A DNA stretch of 38,129 bases from Asaia bogorensis (GTDB taxonomy: Bacteria; Pseudomonadota; Alphaproteobacteria; Reyranellales; Reyranellaceae), in NCBI GenBank assembly GCA_945905835.1, contig CAMDQJ010000031.1, positions 1-38,129 on the forward strand. Direction: 5' to 3'. The translations under genes and the position numbers were made by a program. The notes beneath the pieces were generated by a model, which was not told the DNA's origin, searched no databases, and saw only the letters and a list, made by a program, of their open reading frames with translations. Shown one piece after another: positions 15,148 to 27,199 of this stretch. Numbering within the stretch: position 1 is the stretch's first letter; each line of letters starts with the position of its first letter.

Positions 15148-16319
15148 TGCGCCTCGACTAAAAGCCCGCCGTGCCAGCGGCGTGACAACAGGATCAGTGC
15201 CAGCATGCCGACGCAGCTGACGCCCAGCATGCCCAGGAACGCGCGCTGGCCAAACGCGGAATAGAGCTGGCCGGAGAACTGGAACACCAGCGCCTGCATG
15301 GCGCCGGTGCCGAGCGCGTAATAGAGGCTCTGGCCGATGGCCGCGCCGGTCGGCGGCAGGGCGCGCTGCAGGAAGGCCATGGCGCCGAGATGGCAGGCGG
15401 CGAAGGTGCAGGAATGCAGCGCCTGCAGGAAAACCAGGGCCGTCACGTCGGTGGTGAAGGCCATGGCTGTCCAGCGCACCATGCCGGCAGAGAGCCCGAG
15501 TGCGAGCAAGCCGCAGGGACCGAGGCGCGCCAGCAGCCAGCCGCCGAACAACATCAGCACGATCTCGACGGCGACGCTTTCGGACCACAGCAGGCTGATG
15601 GTGACATCGTCGATGCCGGCGGCGCGCCAGGTGAGCGTGCCGAAGCTGTAGAGCACGGAGTGACTGGCCTGGCAGAGGCCGGCGGTGACGAGGAACAACA
15701 GGAACGGCGGCGAGCGCAGCAGCGTGGCGACGCGGAACGGCCCCTTTGGACGGTCGGCGCCCGGGGCACGGGCCTCGGCCGTCGGCAGCCACAACGCGAA
15801 GGGGGCAAGCAGGACAAGTCCGCCCAGCGCGACGTAGAGCACCCATGACGGACCGTGGCTGTCGACCGAGACGCCGCAGACGAAGGCGCCGAGGATGAAG
15901 GCGACCGAACTCCACATGCGCACGCGCGCATAGTCGAGACCGTGGCGCTTGGTCTCGGTCACCAGTACACCGTCGTAGAGCGGCATCGGCGGCGACCAAA
16001 CGAACCCCCACAGCATGGTGACGACGAAGATCGCGAGGAAGGTATGGGAGAACTCGTAGGCGCCGATCAGCACCAGCGCGGCGATGCCCAGCGTCACGAT
16101 CACACCCTTCGGTCCGCCCAGCCGATGGGCGATCCAGCCGACGGAGAGCGTGGCGATGACGCCGACGATCTGGCGGCTCATGAACAGCGTGCCGAGTTCG
16201 GTGTCGCTGACACCGCGATCCTTCAGCCACACCGGCCAGTAGCTCATGAAGGCGCCGGCCGCGAAGAAATAGGCGGCGCCATAGCCGGCGAGCCGCAACG
16301 CCGTCAGCCAACGATCCAT
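15144..16319 (-). CDS. MFS transporter (HcaT/LacY-like subgroup)
   Basis: This 391-residue carrier has about twelve hydrophobic segments. The start RLAGYGAAYFFAAGAFMSYWPVWLKDRGVSDTELGTLF resembles the phenylpropionate permease HcaT and nucleoside/sugar proton-symporter branch, in which the first helix is followed by a Y-W-P...L-x-x-x-G turn. R-V-R-M-W-S-S-V-A-F-I-L-G near residue 130 is the conserved helix-5 segment. It probably imports a carboxylate or aromatic acid by proton symport. Its ATG overlaps the TGA of the CoA transferase gene as TGATG, so import and CoA activation are likely coupled: the acid brought in may be the acceptor of that transferase. Confidence 0.87.
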   Translation of the reverse strand: MDRWLTALRLAGYGAAYFFAAGAFMSYWPVWLKDRGVSDTELGTLFMSRQIVGVIATLSVGWIAHRLGGPKGVIVTLGIAALVLIGAYEFSHTFLAIFVVTMLWGFVWSPPMPLYDGVLVTETKRHGLDYARVRMWSSVAFILGAFVCGVSVDSHGPSWVLYVALGGLVLLAPFALWLPTAEARAPGADRPKGPFRVATLLRSPPFLLFLVTAGLCQASHSVLYSFGTLTWRAAGIDDVTISLLWSESVAVEIVLMLFGGWLLARLGPCGLLALGLSAGMVRWTAMAFTTDVTALVFLQALHSCTFAACHLGAMAFLQRALPPTGAAIGQSLYYALGTGAMQALVFQFSGQLYSAFGQRAFLGMLGVSCVGMLALILLSRRWHGGLLVEAH

Positions 16320-17443
16320 CAGGCGGCGAACTCGCGGCGCACGGCGTCGGTGTGCTGGCCGAGGCCGGGCACGTCGCCCAGCCGTGCCGGTTCACCGGTG
16401 TATGAGGCGGCGAGAGCGGGAACGCTGACCTCGCCGTTCGGGGTCTTGAAGCCCGTGCGCCTGAGCTGCGGGTGCGTCGAGAGATCGGCCACGGAACTCA
16501 CGCGCGCCCAAGCGATCTGCGCCGCGTCCAGGCGCGCGGACAGGGTTTCGAAGCCTTGGGCGCCAAAGCTCTTCTGCACGATCGCGTTGGTGTCGTCGCG
16601 CCGGGCGTTGCGCGCCTTGTTGGTGGCGTAGAGAGGATCCTTCTCGAGGCCTGGCTTGTCGAGGACGCCTTCGCACAGCCGCGCGAACTCGCGGTCGTTC
16701 TGGATCGAGATCAACACTGGCACCTTGTCGGCCGTGCTGTAGACGCCGTAAGGCGCGATGGTTGGATGCGTGAGGCCGAGCCGTGGCCAGTCGTAGGCGC
16801 CGTAATCTTTGGCGAGCAGAGGGACGCTCATCCATTCGGCCATCGAGGAGAACAGCGACACGGAGATGCTGCGGCCTTCGCCGATTTTGCCGCGCGCAAT
16901 CAGTGCTTCGAGGATGGCGGCGTGAGCGTACATGCCAGTGCCGATGTCGGTCGCCGACACGCCAATGCGGCCCGGCGCATGCTCGGTGCCGGTGATCGAC
17001 GCCATGCCGCTCTCGGCCTGCACCAGCAGGTCGTAGGCGCGGCGGTCCTTGTAGGGGCCATGTTCGCCGTAGCCCGAGATGTCGACGGCGATCAAGCGTT
17101 TGTCCTTCGCCCGCATGGCGGCAGAACCGAAGCCCGCACGCTCGGCGGCGCCCGGCGCCAGGTTCTGGATCAGCACATCGGCCTTGCCGATCATGCGGTG
17201 CAACAGGGCGAGGTCGTCCTTTTTCTTGAAGTCGAGTGTGACGGACTGCTTACCGCGATTGAGCCAGACGAAATAGCTGGCGAGGCCATACACATAGCCG
17301 TCATAGCCGCGCGCGAAATCGCCCTCGGGGCGCTCGATCTTGATGACGCGCGCGCCGGCATCGGCCAAGCGCGCCGAGCAATAGGGGGCCGCGACCGCCT
17401 GCTCGACGCTCACCACCAGCAGGCCTTCCAGCGCTCCGGGCAT
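16319..17443 (-). CDS. CaiB/BaiF (family III) CoA transferase
   Basis: This 374-residue family III CoA transferase has the standard features: LVVSVEQAVAAPYCSARLADAGARVIKIERPEGD at the N-terminus, LNRGKQSVTLDFK near 61-73, and the catalytic Asp138 in YDLLVQAESG, which forms the acyl-aspartyl intermediate in this family. At 374 residues it is slightly shorter than the typical 390-430. These enzymes move CoA between carboxylic acids. The gene is translationally coupled to the MFS gene (TGATG) and divergent from the aconitase X locus, with 69 bases between start codons. Another family member lies at 19129-20334, so two CoA transferases flank aconitase X. Confidence 0.9.
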   Translation of the reverse strand: MPGALEGLLVVSVEQAVAAPYCSARLADAGARVIKIERPEGDFARGYDGYVYGLASYFVWLNRGKQSVTLDFKKKDDLALLHRMIGKADVLIQNLAPGAAERAGFGSAAMRAKDKRLIAVDISGYGEHGPYKDRRAYDLLVQAESGMASITGTEHAPGRIGVSATDIGTGMYAHAAILEALIARGKIGEGRSISVSLFSSMAEWMSVPLLAKDYGAYDWPRLGLTHPTIAPYGVYSTADKVPVLISIQNDREFARLCEGVLDKPGLEKDPLYATNKARNARRDDTNAIVQKSFGAQGFETLSARLDAAQIAWARVSSVADLSTHPQLRRTGFKTPNGEVSVPALAASYTGEPARLGDVPGLGQHTDAVRREFAA

Positions 17444-17512
17444 CTTTTACGCTTCACTCCGTTGAAGGCCGGCACCATGCCCCAACACGCTTCGCTATGC
17501 CATAGTGTCGGC

Positions 17513-18751
17513 ATGGTGCAACTCGCATCCGAGGAGCGCGACATCATCGCCGGCCGCGACGGTGCGGCTAAGGCCATGGCGCTGCGCATCGTCGCCGACA
17601 CCGCGCGCATGGTGGGCGCGGCGAAGCTGGTGCCGATCGCCTCGGCGCATATCGACGGCTGCCTCTATCACGGCGATTCCGGTACGCACTTCGCCGAGAA
17701 GCTTTTGGCCGGCGGCGGCGCGGTCGCGGTACCAACGACGCTCAATGTCGGCGCGCTCGATCTTCTGCACGCCGGCCGTGTGCGCTTGACGCCGGAACGC
17801 GCGGCAATGGCCAGGCGCATGATGGATGCCTACCGGGCGCTGGGCTGTCAGCCGACCTGGACTTGCGCGCCCTACCAGGCGGGACACCGTCCGGCGGTCG
17901 GCTAGCATGTCGCCTGGGGCGAAAGCAACGCCGTTGCCTTCTGCAATTCCGTGCTCGGCGCGCGCACCGAGCGCTACGGCGATTTTCTGGACATCTGCGC
18001 GGCGCTGTCCGGTCGCGCGCCGGAGACCGGCTTGCATCTCAGCGACAATCGTCGCCCGACGGTGCATGTCGATGCAAGCGCGCTCGACCGGCGTCTGGTC
18101 GACGAGGACACTTTTTGGCCGGTGCTTGGCGCCTGGCTGGGAGAAATCGCCGGCGGCCGCATCGTCGCCTTTACGGGACTGCCGCAGCAAATCGACGAGG
18201 ATCGCCTCAAGGCAATGGGCGCCGCGGCGGCATCGACCGGCGCGGTCGGTCTCTTTCATGTCGCAGGTGTCACGCCTGAGCCGGTGGATATCGCCGATGT
18301 GCACCGAACCATCGTGCTCACGGGGGCGATGCTGCATGCGGCACGCGATCGATTGTCGACGACGCGCGCAATGAGTGGCGATCGCGTCGATGCCGTCGCG
18401 GTCGGCTCGCCGCATTTCTCCTTTGGCGAGTTCGAGCGGCTGCTCGTGGCGCTGAAAGGCAGAAAGCTTGCCATTCCATTCTATGTCTGCACGGGGCGGC
18501 ACACGCTCGATGAGTTGGCGAAAGCCGGAATTGACCTGTAATCGAGCGGCCTCACGGTCGTGGCCGACACCTGCATCGTGGTGACGCCGATCCTGCCGGA
18601 CAACACCGGCCTGCTGCTGACCAACTCCGGCAAGTTCGCGCATTACACGCGGCCTAACACCGGCGCCGACGTCTTATACGGCTCGCTGGCCGACTGCGCC
18701 GAGACGGCGGTCGCGGGACGCCTCGTGCGCGATGAAGGCCTGTGGCGATGA
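17513..18751 (+). pseudogene. Aconitase X large (catalytic) subunit interrupted by two in-frame stop codons
   Basis: Read straight through, this frame gives 412 codons, the full expected length of the aconitase X large subunit. Recognisable blocks are ASAHIDGCLYHGDSG, TTLNVGALD, TWTCAPYQ, HVAWGESNAVAFCNSVLGART, VGSPHFSFGEF and VADTCIVVTPILPDNTG. Two stops interrupt it in the same frame with no indel: TAG at 17903-17905 (codon 131, just before HVAWGESNAV, where family members usually have Glu) and TAA at 18539-18541 (codon 343). The family dehydrates substrates such as cis-3-hydroxy-L-proline (bacteria) or mevalonate-5-phosphate (archaea) with an iron-sulfur cluster; the likely Cys ligands remain. 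TAG and TAA are normal stops elsewhere in the window, so readthrough is unlikely. The choice lies between a recent pseudogene and sequence errors. No Shine-Dalgarno is seen at 17513. Confidence 0.82.
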
Positions 18752-19119
18752 AGCTGATGCTGCCTGGCACGGCCGAGGACCGTGTCCTGAAGATGCCCAA
18801 GTTGTCGCTGTGGGGCGGCGTCGATCCGTTCAGCGGAAAGCTCACTGATCCGGCGCTGCCGCATTGCGGCGAGAGCGTGCGGGGCCGCGTACTGATGATC
18901 GCCGAGCCGGTCGGCTCCTCCTCGTCGAGCGCGGTGCTGCTCGAGTTGCTGCACGGCAGCAACGCGCCTGTCGGAATTGTCCTGGGATGCGAGGACGCGA
19001 TCGTCGGCCTCGGAGTCCTCGTGGCGCGCGAGATGGGATGGGCTACCATTCCGATCGCCGTGATGGCGCCGTCGGAGCAGGACAAGATCGCCGACGGCGA
19101 GACAATGAAGATTGGGTAG
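18748..19119 (+). CDS. Aconitase X small (swivel-domain) subunit
   Basis: This 123-residue protein of the aconitase X swivel-domain family (DUF126) has LSLWGGVDPFSGKLTDP near 20-36 and the serine cluster GSSSSSAVLLE near 56-66, followed by NAPVGIVLGCEDAIVGLGVLVARE. In relatives the serine cluster is usually preceded by Arg-Gly; here it reads Val-Gly. The subunit closes over the active site of the large subunit. The ATG overlaps the large subunit's TGA (ATGA), the arrangement expected of a heterodimeric enzyme, and a GTG at 18742 is a less likely start. This gene is fully open although the large subunit carries two stop codons. The CoA transferase gene follows 9 bases later. Confidence 0.88.
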   Translation: MKLMLPGTAEDRVLKMPKLSLWGGVDPFSGKLTDPALPHCGESVRGRVLMIAEPVGSSSSSAVLLELLHGSNAPVGIVLGCEDAIVGLGVLVAREMGWATIPIAVMAPSEQDKIADGETMKIG

Positions 19120-19128
19120 GGGACGGAA

Positions 19129-20334
19129 ATGCCGGGACCGCTTGCGGGCGTAAAGGTGATCGATCTGACGGCGGTGCTGCTGGGGCCGTTCGCGACACAG
19201 CATCTGGCCGACATGGGCGCCGATGTTATCAAGGTCGAGCCGCCGGAGGGCGACCTTTTGCGCGTGTCGGGCGGCGTCATGGGCCGCGACAAGTCGATGG
19301 GCCCGATCTACATGGCGGCCAACCGCAACAAGCGCTCGATCTGCCTCGACCTGAAGAAGCCCGCCGCCTGCGCCGTGCTGAAGGACATGATCAAGACGGC
19401 CGATCTCTTCATTCACAACAGCCGGCCCGCCGCGATCGAGCGCCTAGGCCTGGGCTACGAAGACCTCAAGAAAATAAATCCTTCGATCGTCTATGCCTAT
19501 TCGCTGGGCTACGCGCGCAAAGGTCCCTACGGCCACAAGCCCGCCTTCGACGATCTCGTGCAGGGCGTGAGCGGCGCCGCCTCGCTGCAGAGCCGCGTCG
19601 ACGGCGAGGCGCCGCGCTTCATGCCGAGCCTGATCGCCGACAAGACCACCGGGCTCCATCTCTGCATCGCCGTGCTGGGTGCGCTCTATCATCGCAAATG
19701 CACCGGCGAGGGCCAGATGATCGAGGTGCCGATGCTGGAAACGCTGGCCTCGTTCTGGCTGACCGAGCATCTGTTCGGCAGGACGTGGCGGCCCGAGCGC
19801 GGGTCGATGGGCTACGACCGCATCATCAACAAGTTCCGCCATCCGTTCGCGACCAAGAACGGCTATGTCTGCGCGCTGCCCTATACCGACGCGCACTGGC
19901 TCACCTTTTTCGAGATCGTCGATCGGCCCGACCTCGCCAAGGATCCGCGCTTCTGCGACCGCATCGAGCGGCCCAAGCATTTCAGCGAGCTCTACCAAGT
20001 GCTCGGTTCGCTCCTGAAGCATCGCACGACAGAGGAATGGCTGGAGGCCTTCGACAAGGCCGACATCCCGGCCATGCCAGTGCGCACCCTGGAGGAGCTG
20101 TTCGACGACCCGCACCTCAAGGCCACCGGCTTCTTTACCGACCGCGAACATCCGACCGAGGGGCCGATCACGACTTTTGCCAGCCCCCTCGATTTCGAGA
20201 AGACCAAAACCGAGTTCCGCCGCCACGCCCCGCGTATCGGCGAAGATGGCGAGGAAGTGCTGCGCGAGGCGGGTCTGAGTGATACCGCGATCGAAAAACT
20301 GAAGGCCAACAAGGCGCTGATCGTACCGTCGTGA
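19129..20334 (+). CDS. CaiB/BaiF (family III) CoA transferase
   Basis: This 401-residue family III CoA transferase starts MPGPLAGVKVIDLTAVLLGPFATQHLADMGADVIKVEPPEGD. It carries the nucleotide/CoA-contact segment NRNKRSICLDLK near 66-77 and the catalytic Asp141 in FDDLVQGVSG (the family usually shows YD). The C-terminal half has the small-domain motifs FFTDREHPTEGP and HAPRIGEDGEEVL. AGGGGA precedes the ATG. It is spaced like an operon partner of the aconitase X subunits, so it may activate the acid that aconitase X makes, or make aconitase X's substrate available; this is inference. The downstream PLD-like gene overlaps its stop codon (GTGA). Confidence 0.92.
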   Translation: MPGPLAGVKVIDLTAVLLGPFATQHLADMGADVIKVEPPEGDLLRVSGGVMGRDKSMGPIYMAANRNKRSICLDLKKPAACAVLKDMIKTADLFIHNSRPAAIERLGLGYEDLKKINPSIVYAYSLGYARKGPYGHKPAFDDLVQGVSGAASLQSRVDGEAPRFMPSLIADKTTGLHLCIAVLGALYHRKCTGEGQMIEVPMLETLASFWLTEHLFGRTWRPERGSMGYDRIINKFRHPFATKNGYVCALPYTDAHWLTFFEIVDRPDLAKDPRFCDRIERPKHFSELYQVLGSLLKHRTTEEWLEAFDKADIPAMPVRTLEELFDDPHLKATGFFTDREHPTEGPITTFASPLDFEKTKTEFRRHAPRIGEDGEEVLREAGLSDTAIEKLKANKALIVPS

Positions 20335-21673
20335 AGTCAACGCCGTACATTCCGTTCGCGACGTCTGGATCCTATCCGGCACGTCCCGACAACAAGGTGC
20401 GGATGTTGATTGGAGGTGGGCCGATTTTTCAGCGGATCGGTGAAGCCGTCGACGCTGCCCGGCATAGCATATGGCTGACCATCGCCTTTTATACCGACAA
20501 TTTCTGCTTTCCAGACGGGCGCGGTTCGCTGTTCGACGCCTTGGATCGCGCCGTTGCGCGGGGAGTCGATGTGCGCGTTGTCGTGTGGCGTCCCAATCCC
20601 GAGGTTGCCCGTCGTCCCAACATGTTCATCGGCTCGTCGGCGGATCGCGACCTTCTTGGCAAGCGCGGATCGCGCATCAAGTTCGCTGGGACCGAACCGT
20701 CGGTGTCTTTTGCCAACACCAGAAGAGCTGGGTGATCGATGCCGGCCAGCCGTTGCAGTCGGCGTTCGTCGGCGGTGCCAATCTAGGCGCTCCTTCCTTC
20801 GAATTTCACAACGTCTATCTCGAGGTGGAAGGCCCCGCCGTCACCGACGTCCATCACAATTTTGTCCAGCGTTGGAATGAGGCGAGCGAAAGGGAGAAAG
20901 AAGACGGAAGCTGGAACTGCGATGCGGCAGAAGTCCTTCCTTTTCCTGTGCAGGCCTCCGGGCGGCGCGGTTCGAGCATCGTGCAGATCCAGCGGATGAT
21001 CCAGGGCGGGCTCTATCGCGATGGTCGCCCGACGCCCGGCGGTAACGCCTTCGATGTCGCGCAAGGAGAGCGCTCCGTTCTGGAGCAGTACGAGCGTGCG
21101 ATCGATGCGGCCAAACGCACGATCTATCTGGAAAACCAGGCCATCCCGGTGATGAGCGTGGCAGGTCCCCTCGTGCGGGCGCTGGAACGCGGTGTCGACG
21201 TGGTCCTGCTGGCTCCGGCGAAACCCGAAGACTACGTCTATGCCGCCCGTCATGACCCCAATCAGCGGCCGCGATTCGAGGGTATCGACGCGCTCGGACG
21301 CTATCCCAACTTTCTATTTGCCGGCATTGCGAAGCAGGATGGGGAAAGCCGTCATCCTGTCTATGTGCACTCCAAGCACATGGTGGTCGACAATGCTTGG
21401 GCCACTATCGGCTCGTGCAACCTGCACGCCTTCTCGCTCGCCGGGCATTCCGAGATGAACGCGTCGATCTGGGACGAGGAGGTCGTGCGCGACTTCCGGC
21501 GCCGGCTGTTCGCGCTGCATCTTGGACTGGACGTGGCGCATCTCGACGATCGGGCGGCCGTGCAACTCTATTGCCGCGTCGCGCAGGAAAACCGCGCCAA
21601 AATGGAAGCCGGCGATACAAATTGGCAGGGCAATGTCTTTGCCTTGCCGCCGGAGCGATATGGCCTGACGTAA
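20331..21673 (+). pseudogene. Phospholipase D-like (HKD) protein with a one-base frameshift
   Basis: Two overlapping frames together encode one PLD-superfamily protein of about 447 residues. The first (GTG at 20331, overlapping the upstream TGA) gives SYPARPDNKVRMLIGGG...VDVRVVVWRPN...GSSADRDLLGKRGSRIK and then stops at 20735. The second continues RWDR...H-Q-K-S-W-V-I-D, the first HKD motif, near 20714, and later H-S-K-H-M-V-V-D near 21373-21396, the second. The switch needs one missing base, most likely around 20681 where IK runs into RWDR. An alternative is a slip on TTTT at 20708-20711. Intact members hydrolyse or transfer phosphodiesters such as phospholipids. Apart from the frameshift, both catalytic motifs are intact, so it is either a young pseudogene or a sequencing error. 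Confidence 0.83.
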
Positions 21674-26353: not shown

Positions 26354-27199
26354 ATGGCTTACGAAACCGTGGAAGTCCGCAAACTGACCGGCGGCTGTGG
26401 CGCCGAGGTGCTGGGCATCGACGTGACGTCGATGAGCAATCGGCAATGGGGCGAGGTCCAGCAGGCCTTCGTCGAGCACGGCGTCATCTTTTTCCGCGAC
26501 CAGAGCCTAACGCCCGAGCAGCATATCGCGTTCGCGCGGCGCTGGGGGTCGATCGACGTCAACCGCTACTTCACGCCCGTCGCCGGCTATCCGGAGATCG
26601 CCGAGGTCCGCAAGGAGCCGGAGCAGAAGAAGAACATCGGCGAAGGCTGGCATACCGATCACACCTACGACGCCATACCGGCCATGGGGTCGATCCTGGT
26701 GGCGCGCGAGCTGCCGTCGAAGGGCGGCGACACGTCGTTCGCCAACATCTACCGAGCGTTCGAGACATTGTCGGAAGGGCTGAAGCGGACGTTGCGCGGC
26801 CTCAATGCGGTGCATTCGTCGGCGCATGTGTTCGGCACCAAGGCGCGCCAGGGCAAGGGCGACGATCTCACCTTCCACAATGGCGACCAGGTGGGCGACG
26901 TCGTCCATCCGGCCGTGATCCGACATCCGCTGAGCGGCCGGGAAGCGCTTTACGTCAACGCGGACTTCACCATCCATTTTGAGGGCTGGAGCGCGGAAGA
27001 CAGCAAGCCGCTCCTGCAGCATCTCTATGCCCATGTGACGCGACCCGAATTCACCAGCCGCTTCCAGTGGCGGCCAGGCTCGATCGCTTTCTGGGACAAT
27101 CGTGCGACCTGGCACAGTGCAGCCAACGACTATCACGGTGAGCGCCGGCTGATGCATCGCATCACCGTCGGTGGCTGCAAGCTGGAAGCCGCCAGCTAG
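26354..27199 (+). CDS. TauD/TfdA-family 2-oxoglutarate-dependent dioxygenase
   Basis: This 281-residue non-haem iron dioxygenase has the iron facial triad as His100 and Asp102 in GWHTDHTY and distal His254 in FWDNRATWHSA. The 2-oxoglutarate-binding arginine lies in the RRLMHRITV segment near 264-272. N-terminal GAEVLGIDV and HGVIFFRDQSLTPEQHIAFARRWG are classic TauD features. Members hydroxylate taurine, alkyl sulfates, 2,4-D and similar compounds, releasing sulfite or an aldehyde; the substrate here is not evident. GGAGGAAACGAC precedes the ATG. The stop shares one CTAG with the stop of the convergent TSUP permease gene, a family sometimes linked to sulfur-compound transport. Confidence 0.93.
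   Translation: MAYETVEVRKLTGGCGAEVLGIDVTSMSNRQWGEVQQAFVEHGVIFFRDQSLTPEQHIAFARRWGSIDVNRYFTPVAGYPEIAEVRKEPEQKKNIGEGWHTDHTYDAIPAMGSILVARELPSKGGDTSFANIYRAFETLSEGLKRTLRGLNAVHSSAHVFGTKARQGKGDDLTFHNGDQVGDVVHPAVIRHPLSGREALYVNADFTIHFEGWSAEDSKPLLQHLYAHVTRPEFTSRFQWRPGSIAFWDNRATWHSAANDYHGERRLMHRITVGGCKLEAAS

Follow-up and report, generated by a model that had tools for sequence, protein, structure and literature searches.

A probable very young pseudogene of the aconitase X large subunit in a draft bacterial genome

Has an aconitase X (AcnX) large-subunit gene that is full length in a single frame, and carries two different stop codons within it, been lost, been misassembled, or kept in use through its stops? 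The question arises from the window, the whole 38,129-nucleotide stretch analysed here, which is contig C31 of a draft assembly (4.07 Mb, 185 contigs, 96.5% complete). The source genome is the smallest among the genomes of its genus that are listed as at least 90% complete. The features that bear on the question are as follows.

16319..17443, minus strand: CoA-transferase family III (PF02515), divergent neighbour; at the equivalent position beside AcnX in loci L010 to L016, L018 and L019.
17513..18751, plus strand: AcnX large-subunit frame, interrupted, pseudogene candidate; PF04412 match across both stops, 76-83% identity to stop-free copies of the same genus.
17903..17905, plus strand: in-frame TAG at codon 131, a variable column (frame reading and alignment column).
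18539..18541, plus strand: in-frame TAA at codon 343, a variable column, adjoining an in-frame shortening of two codons (frame reading and alignment).
18748..19119, plus strand: AcnX small subunit (swivel domain), intact, with an ATGA overlap; PF01989 match, low branch dN/dS.
19129..20334, plus strand: CoA-transferase family III, intact, downstream of AcnX; PF02515 at 361 bits, 90-92% identity and equivalent position in L010 and L011.
20331..21673, plus strand: phospholipase D-like gene with a frameshift near 20710; not at the equivalent position in L010 and L011.

Direct reading of the frame bore out the first-pass annotation, which had described 412 codons in one frame interrupted by one TAG and one TAA. 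The frame matched the AcnX family (PF04412) over residues 3-396 with 416 bits (E 1.3e-124), a match that spans both stops, and a whole-genome profile search reported the locus with "1 TAG, 1 TAA". Identity over all 412 codons to three copies from the same genus was 83, 82 and 76%, far above chance. These copies, from genomes G070, G089 and G080, were equated with L010, L011 and L012 by identity and position. The small subunit had likewise been described as intact and it is (PF01989, 65 bits), its start overlapping the large subunit's own TGA by ATGA. The window, L010 and L011 have a common gene order: an MFS transporter and a CoA-transferase III that diverge from the pair, the large and small AcnX subunits, a CoA-transferase III and three acyl-CoA dehydrogenases. 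A second AcnX in the same genome, on contig C73, is remote (33% identity) and uninterrupted. An antisense open reading frame of 382 codons (17495-18643, minus strand) gave no Pfam family and was taken as a shadow of the AcnX sense frame.

The related loci used for comparison were the best 80 of at least 563 AcnX matches from genome contigs. The initial statement that the frame contains no indel held insofar as no frameshift was found in it, but beside the TAA the window is two codons shorter than most relatives: across the columns of codons 337-346 it has 10 residues and 75 of the best 80 loci (of at least 563) have 12, an in-frame difference of 6 bases, while three of the 80 are equally short or shorter. 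Similarly, family motifs had been placed around the stops, and the PF04412 match does run through both, but the stops themselves lie outside motifs in variable columns. The commonest residues among the best 80 of at least 563 loci are E (29), T (19), Q (13) and S (13) at column 131, and E (40), T (9) and R (6) at column 343. GAG had been named, with other sense codons, as what might stand at the stops; at codon 131 all three same-genus copies have Gln. At codon 343, two or more bases of the TAA are different in each of these three copies. There are 108 near-invariant columns, in which 97% or more of the 80 loci agree, and the window keeps 107 of them. Its sole departure is Pro at 182, where all of the best 80 of at least 563 loci have Ala; over the same 108 columns L010 departs once, L011 twice, and L012 to L014 never.

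A comparison with relatives, which the first-pass annotation had called for, placed the stops in the window copy and in no other of those compared. Across the matched region, internal stops are absent from all of the best 80 of at least 563 related loci, among them the three copies from the same genus. In a search of 75 family genomes, 12 (the window's own included) had a copy with an identity of at least 68%, and the 11 other copies were without an internal stop. The gene is rare in the genus, where four of 65 genomes have it (the window's, G070, G080 and G089). A TGA in the remote AcnX L004 that at first looked like selenocysteine proved to be the terminal codon. Two further remote AcnX loci (L101 and L102, 32-33% identity, from two genus members) were each reported with one TGA inside, which may be terminal, a lesion or selenocysteine. 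Nothing on the AcnX gene of this organism appeared among the papers listed in a literature search.

Conservation of sequence downstream of both stops, and the position of both stops in columns that tolerate many residues, would also be expected if the gene were still used and both codons were read through, by near-cognate decoding or by a suppressor tRNA outside the assembly. Decoding in this genome argues against it. TAG ends 59 of 136 compared genes, TGA 60 and TAA 17 (in G089, 53, 70 and 13 respectively), so both stop types are normal terminators here. The release factor gene prfA scores 519 bits against a cut-off of 423 and is intact; a second release-factor gene is also uninterrupted. None of 40 tRNAs (Rfam places, ARAGORN) has an anticodon for UAG or UAA, in a set that is incomplete, without a Trp or Ile tRNA, and from which a suppressor could be missing too. 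Two earlier arguments, that a reassigned amber codon is unlikely and that two different stop types speak against recoding, were thus upheld by terminator usage, the tRNA set and the intact release factor 1. Recoding or suppression of the AcnX stops is unlikely, and was rejected on these grounds. The lack of any convincing in-frame TAG in 163 other genes (below), and of any stop in the best 80 of at least 563 relatives, also weighs against readthrough. An organism that tolerates inefficient termination, and so makes a low level of full-length AcnX through both stops, would account for the absence of relaxed selection described below and for several other single in-frame TAGs, two of them opposite Gln; we regard this as very improbable, as we do any continued use of the gene by readthrough. 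The 40 tRNAs include a tRNA-Sec gene (L186; G000:C153, about 2110-2200).

Selection on the frame was assessed mainly with a codon model of five sequences. The dN/dS of the window branch was 0.143 against a background of 0.121, which is no difference (LRT 0.44). Window-branch values of 0.10, 0.20, 0.25, 0.5 and 1.0 cost 2.8, 2.4, 6.3, 24.2 and 37.1 in 2dLL, respectively. Neutrality on the window branch is therefore strongly rejected, and the branch shows ordinary purifying selection. In the same model the small subunit gave a dN/dS of 0.118. When the frame is divided at its stops, the three successive segments have dN/dS values of 0.126, 0.126 and 0.213 to L010, and of 0.212, 0.128 and 0.196 to L011, which indicates no extra drift behind the first stop.

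A model with three sequences gave a higher value for AcnX on the window branch (0.110 versus 0.060, LRT 4.37). Equivalent rises appeared in two of the downstream dehydrogenases (0.103 versus 0.023 and 0.088 versus 0.033), and the gene at 26354 was also raised (0.212 versus 0.104); the two CoA-transferases, the third dehydrogenase, the MFS gene and the small subunit showed no rise in this model. By parsimony, with L012 as the outgroup, the window branch had 19 amino-acid changes versus 8 on the shorter sister stem, and 48 third-position changes versus 38. The parsimony count hints at mild relaxation, which the five-sequence model does not back. Normal constraint for nearly all of the history of the gene, with no detectable relaxation, suggests that the loss, provided that the stops are real, happened very recently. 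In a rough Poisson calculation, for which we chose the mutation weights and which was not conditioned on a broken gene, the best fit came at about 15 neutral substitutions with a joint probability of 0.010; for neutral drift it is slightly awkward that a frame with two stops should have lost no more than one near-invariant column.

The same resemblance to a living gene in everything except the stops is what an assembly or base-call error in an intact gene would leave, whether from a low-coverage stretch or a mixture of strains. The genome is a draft in 185 contigs, there is a frameshift at a distance of about 2 kb, and PMC11017572 reports that assembly errors account for many pseudogenes with internal stops, metagenome-assembled genomes not being assessed there. 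Genes from 1.43 Mb of this genome, a portion that takes in the window, were compared with 1.2 Mb of G089. After a codon-position filter against spurious open reading frames in G+C-rich DNA, which some of the frames may still be, 164 genes (59,994 codons, AcnX included) were testable. Convincing internal stops were found in AcnX and in none of the other 163. Six queries gave another seven stops, all of which were discounted by eye; in the mirror test, which covered 162 genes of G089, there were eight stops of similar kind, again from six queries and likewise discounted. The stretches around the discounted stops are rich in Arg and Gly, look out of frame or match poorly (local identity 0.35-0.88), and setting these stops aside was a judgement, not a test. 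With similar stops flagged on both sides, the background appears alike in this genome and G089. Frameshifts were flagged as well, one per side in the filtered comparison and, in a less strict one, three frameshift-like splits here versus four in G089.

The absence of another convincing stop in 163 genes indicates that the assembly is not generally error-ridden. By our own arithmetic, the comparison is compatible with up to about 5 error stops per 100,000 codons, at which rate one gene with two stops in about 4,000 would be unsurprising. The TAA that differs at two or more positions from each same-genus copy, together with the adjoining 6-base difference, does not look like a single miscall. 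The first-pass annotation had offered a very recent loss or base-call errors as explanations. The loss is well supported by stop-free relatives, purifying selection and the absence of any sign of recoding machinery. The 164-gene comparison, and the TAA with its surroundings, lower the likelihood of base-call error, and we consider an assembly or base-call error in an intact gene unlikely, though it is the most serious rival.

Other interrupted genes were seen with less strict tests, in which queries also came from other relatives. Single in-frame TAGs that look genuine occur at C18:1646 (L154), C7:13242 (L143) and C7:42449 (L216, about 2449), in genes labelled by eye as outer-membrane-like, small membrane protein and glutathione S-transferase-like, respectively; in two of the three the TAG stands opposite Gln in a relative. 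Among the matches listed of 89 short-chain dehydrogenases, one on C45 (TAG) and one on C49 (TGA) are interrupted, and no internal stop was found among the matches listed for G089 and G016. Of the CoA-transferase III matches, none of 43 here and none of 36 in G016 has an internal stop, against one of 45 in G089; ABC transporters had none among the matches listed. The genome thus seems to hold a modest number of broken genes beside clean conserved ones, which fits ordinary decay.

A second broken gene had been claimed at 20331-21673, and this was borne out. The phospholipase D-like gene, whose start is 1.2 kb beyond the end of the AcnX pair, opens in the frame of 20331 and resumes at about 20710 in the frame of 20471-21673 (breakpoint by eye). 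Compared with L010 and L011, the roughly 1.4 kb that carries it, between the CoA-transferase and the first dehydrogenase, is present in the window only; in L010 and L011, 117 bases separate the matches of these two genes. The second part of the gene has a long match (E below 1e-80) in 24 of 74 other family genomes, at 52-66% identity and with no internal stop in any of the 24, and no match at E 0.001 in G070, G080 or G089.

Taken together, the AcnX large-subunit gene is most likely a very young pseudogene, a case of ordinary gene decay caught early. A very recent mutation would have knocked the gene out in this lineage, leaving it at the earliest stage of a pseudogene. Translation would stop after 130 codons, and the truncated product would keep Cys118; since it would lack Glu137, Cys354, Lys374 and Tyr378, which align with residues of the cluster and of catalysis in the A. 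tumefaciens enzyme, no working AcnX would be expected. Both stops and the 6-base shortening would have arisen as separate hits, those after the first being tolerated because the gene was already dead. The small subunit and flanking CoA-transferases still look constrained. That the stops are present in the organism and not only in its assembly, and the order of events, we infer. An open stretch with a possible GTG start follows the first stop (17951-18541), so three pieces could conceivably be made separately from internal starts and then reassembled; the cluster and catalytic residues are spread across the pieces, however, and none of the best 80 of at least 563 loci is split in this way, which makes this the least credible of the readings.

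A very young pseudogene would resemble other young bacterial nonsense pseudogenes in its stop-free relatives, shared gene order, stops in one genome and low dN/dS. There is no categorical difference from them; decay is unusually slight for a gene with two stops. By itself the locus carries little weight, whether it adds to the known young pseudogenes or is a flaw of the assembly. Annotators may take it as a caution, since annotation would either break the gene into fragments or, by homology alone, call it intact; it would also provide a case of natural loss in an AcnX subfamily with no assigned substrate.

The character of that subfamily was examined by aligning the frame with 7cnp and 7cnr and with residues named in PMC8184944, mapped by eye. 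The PF04412 and PF01989 matches of the two subunits place them in AcnX. The large subunit scores higher against the Type-I 7cnp (267.7 bits) than against the archaeal Type-IIb 7cnr (191.8 bits), and reaches 372.9 bits against the NCBIfam model of fused AcnX, whose cut-off is 700. Like the Type-I fused AtAcnX/LhpI of A. tumefaciens, it has Asp48, Cys118, Glu137, Cys354, Lys374 and Tyr378 at the aligned places (by eye); unlike that enzyme, it is one of two polypeptides and has Val356 for Cys510. Both alternative third cluster cysteines are missing, with Ser299 (alike in 80 of 80) and Val356 (78 of 80) in their places among the best 80 of at least 563 relatives. The third cluster cysteine of Type-IIb mevalonate-5-phosphate dehydratase (Cys283 of TkAcnX) is thus absent, Ser299 standing there in the window and in all of those 80. 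An extra cysteine, Cys326, occurs in 77 of the best 80 of at least 563 relatives and is absent from six remote copies.

In the small subunit, the motif GSSS(S/G)SA(V/I) occurs in the window and in all 13 relatives read, placing Ser where AtAcnX has Cys71. The Ser-Cys of the Type-I/IIa cis-3-hydroxyproline dehydratase (Ser70 and Cys71 of AtAcnX) is therefore Ser-Ser in the window and the 13 relatives (by eye), and Ser-Ser-Ser stands against the Ser-Cys-Thr of the A. tumefaciens enzyme. According to PMC8184944, Type-IIa AcnX has only two of the cluster cysteines, and Types IIc to IIf are uncharacterised. The locus resembles the two-subunit bacterial AcnX described there in its separate large and small subunits, its two known cluster cysteines (Cys118 and Cys354) and Glu137; it differs in the interruption of the window's large subunit, and its clade in the Ser for Cys71 and the extra Cys326. 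Because the third cluster cysteines are missing and Ser replaces the catalytic Cys, we give the clade no substrate, and on its sequence would file it only as two-subunit AcnX.

The divergent intergenic region upstream of the frame contains a perfect 10-base inverted repeat, GCACCATGCC / GGCATGGTGC, at 17472-17481 and 17510-17519. Its second arm overlies the AcnX start codon, and the repeat is possibly an operator, or a product of chance.
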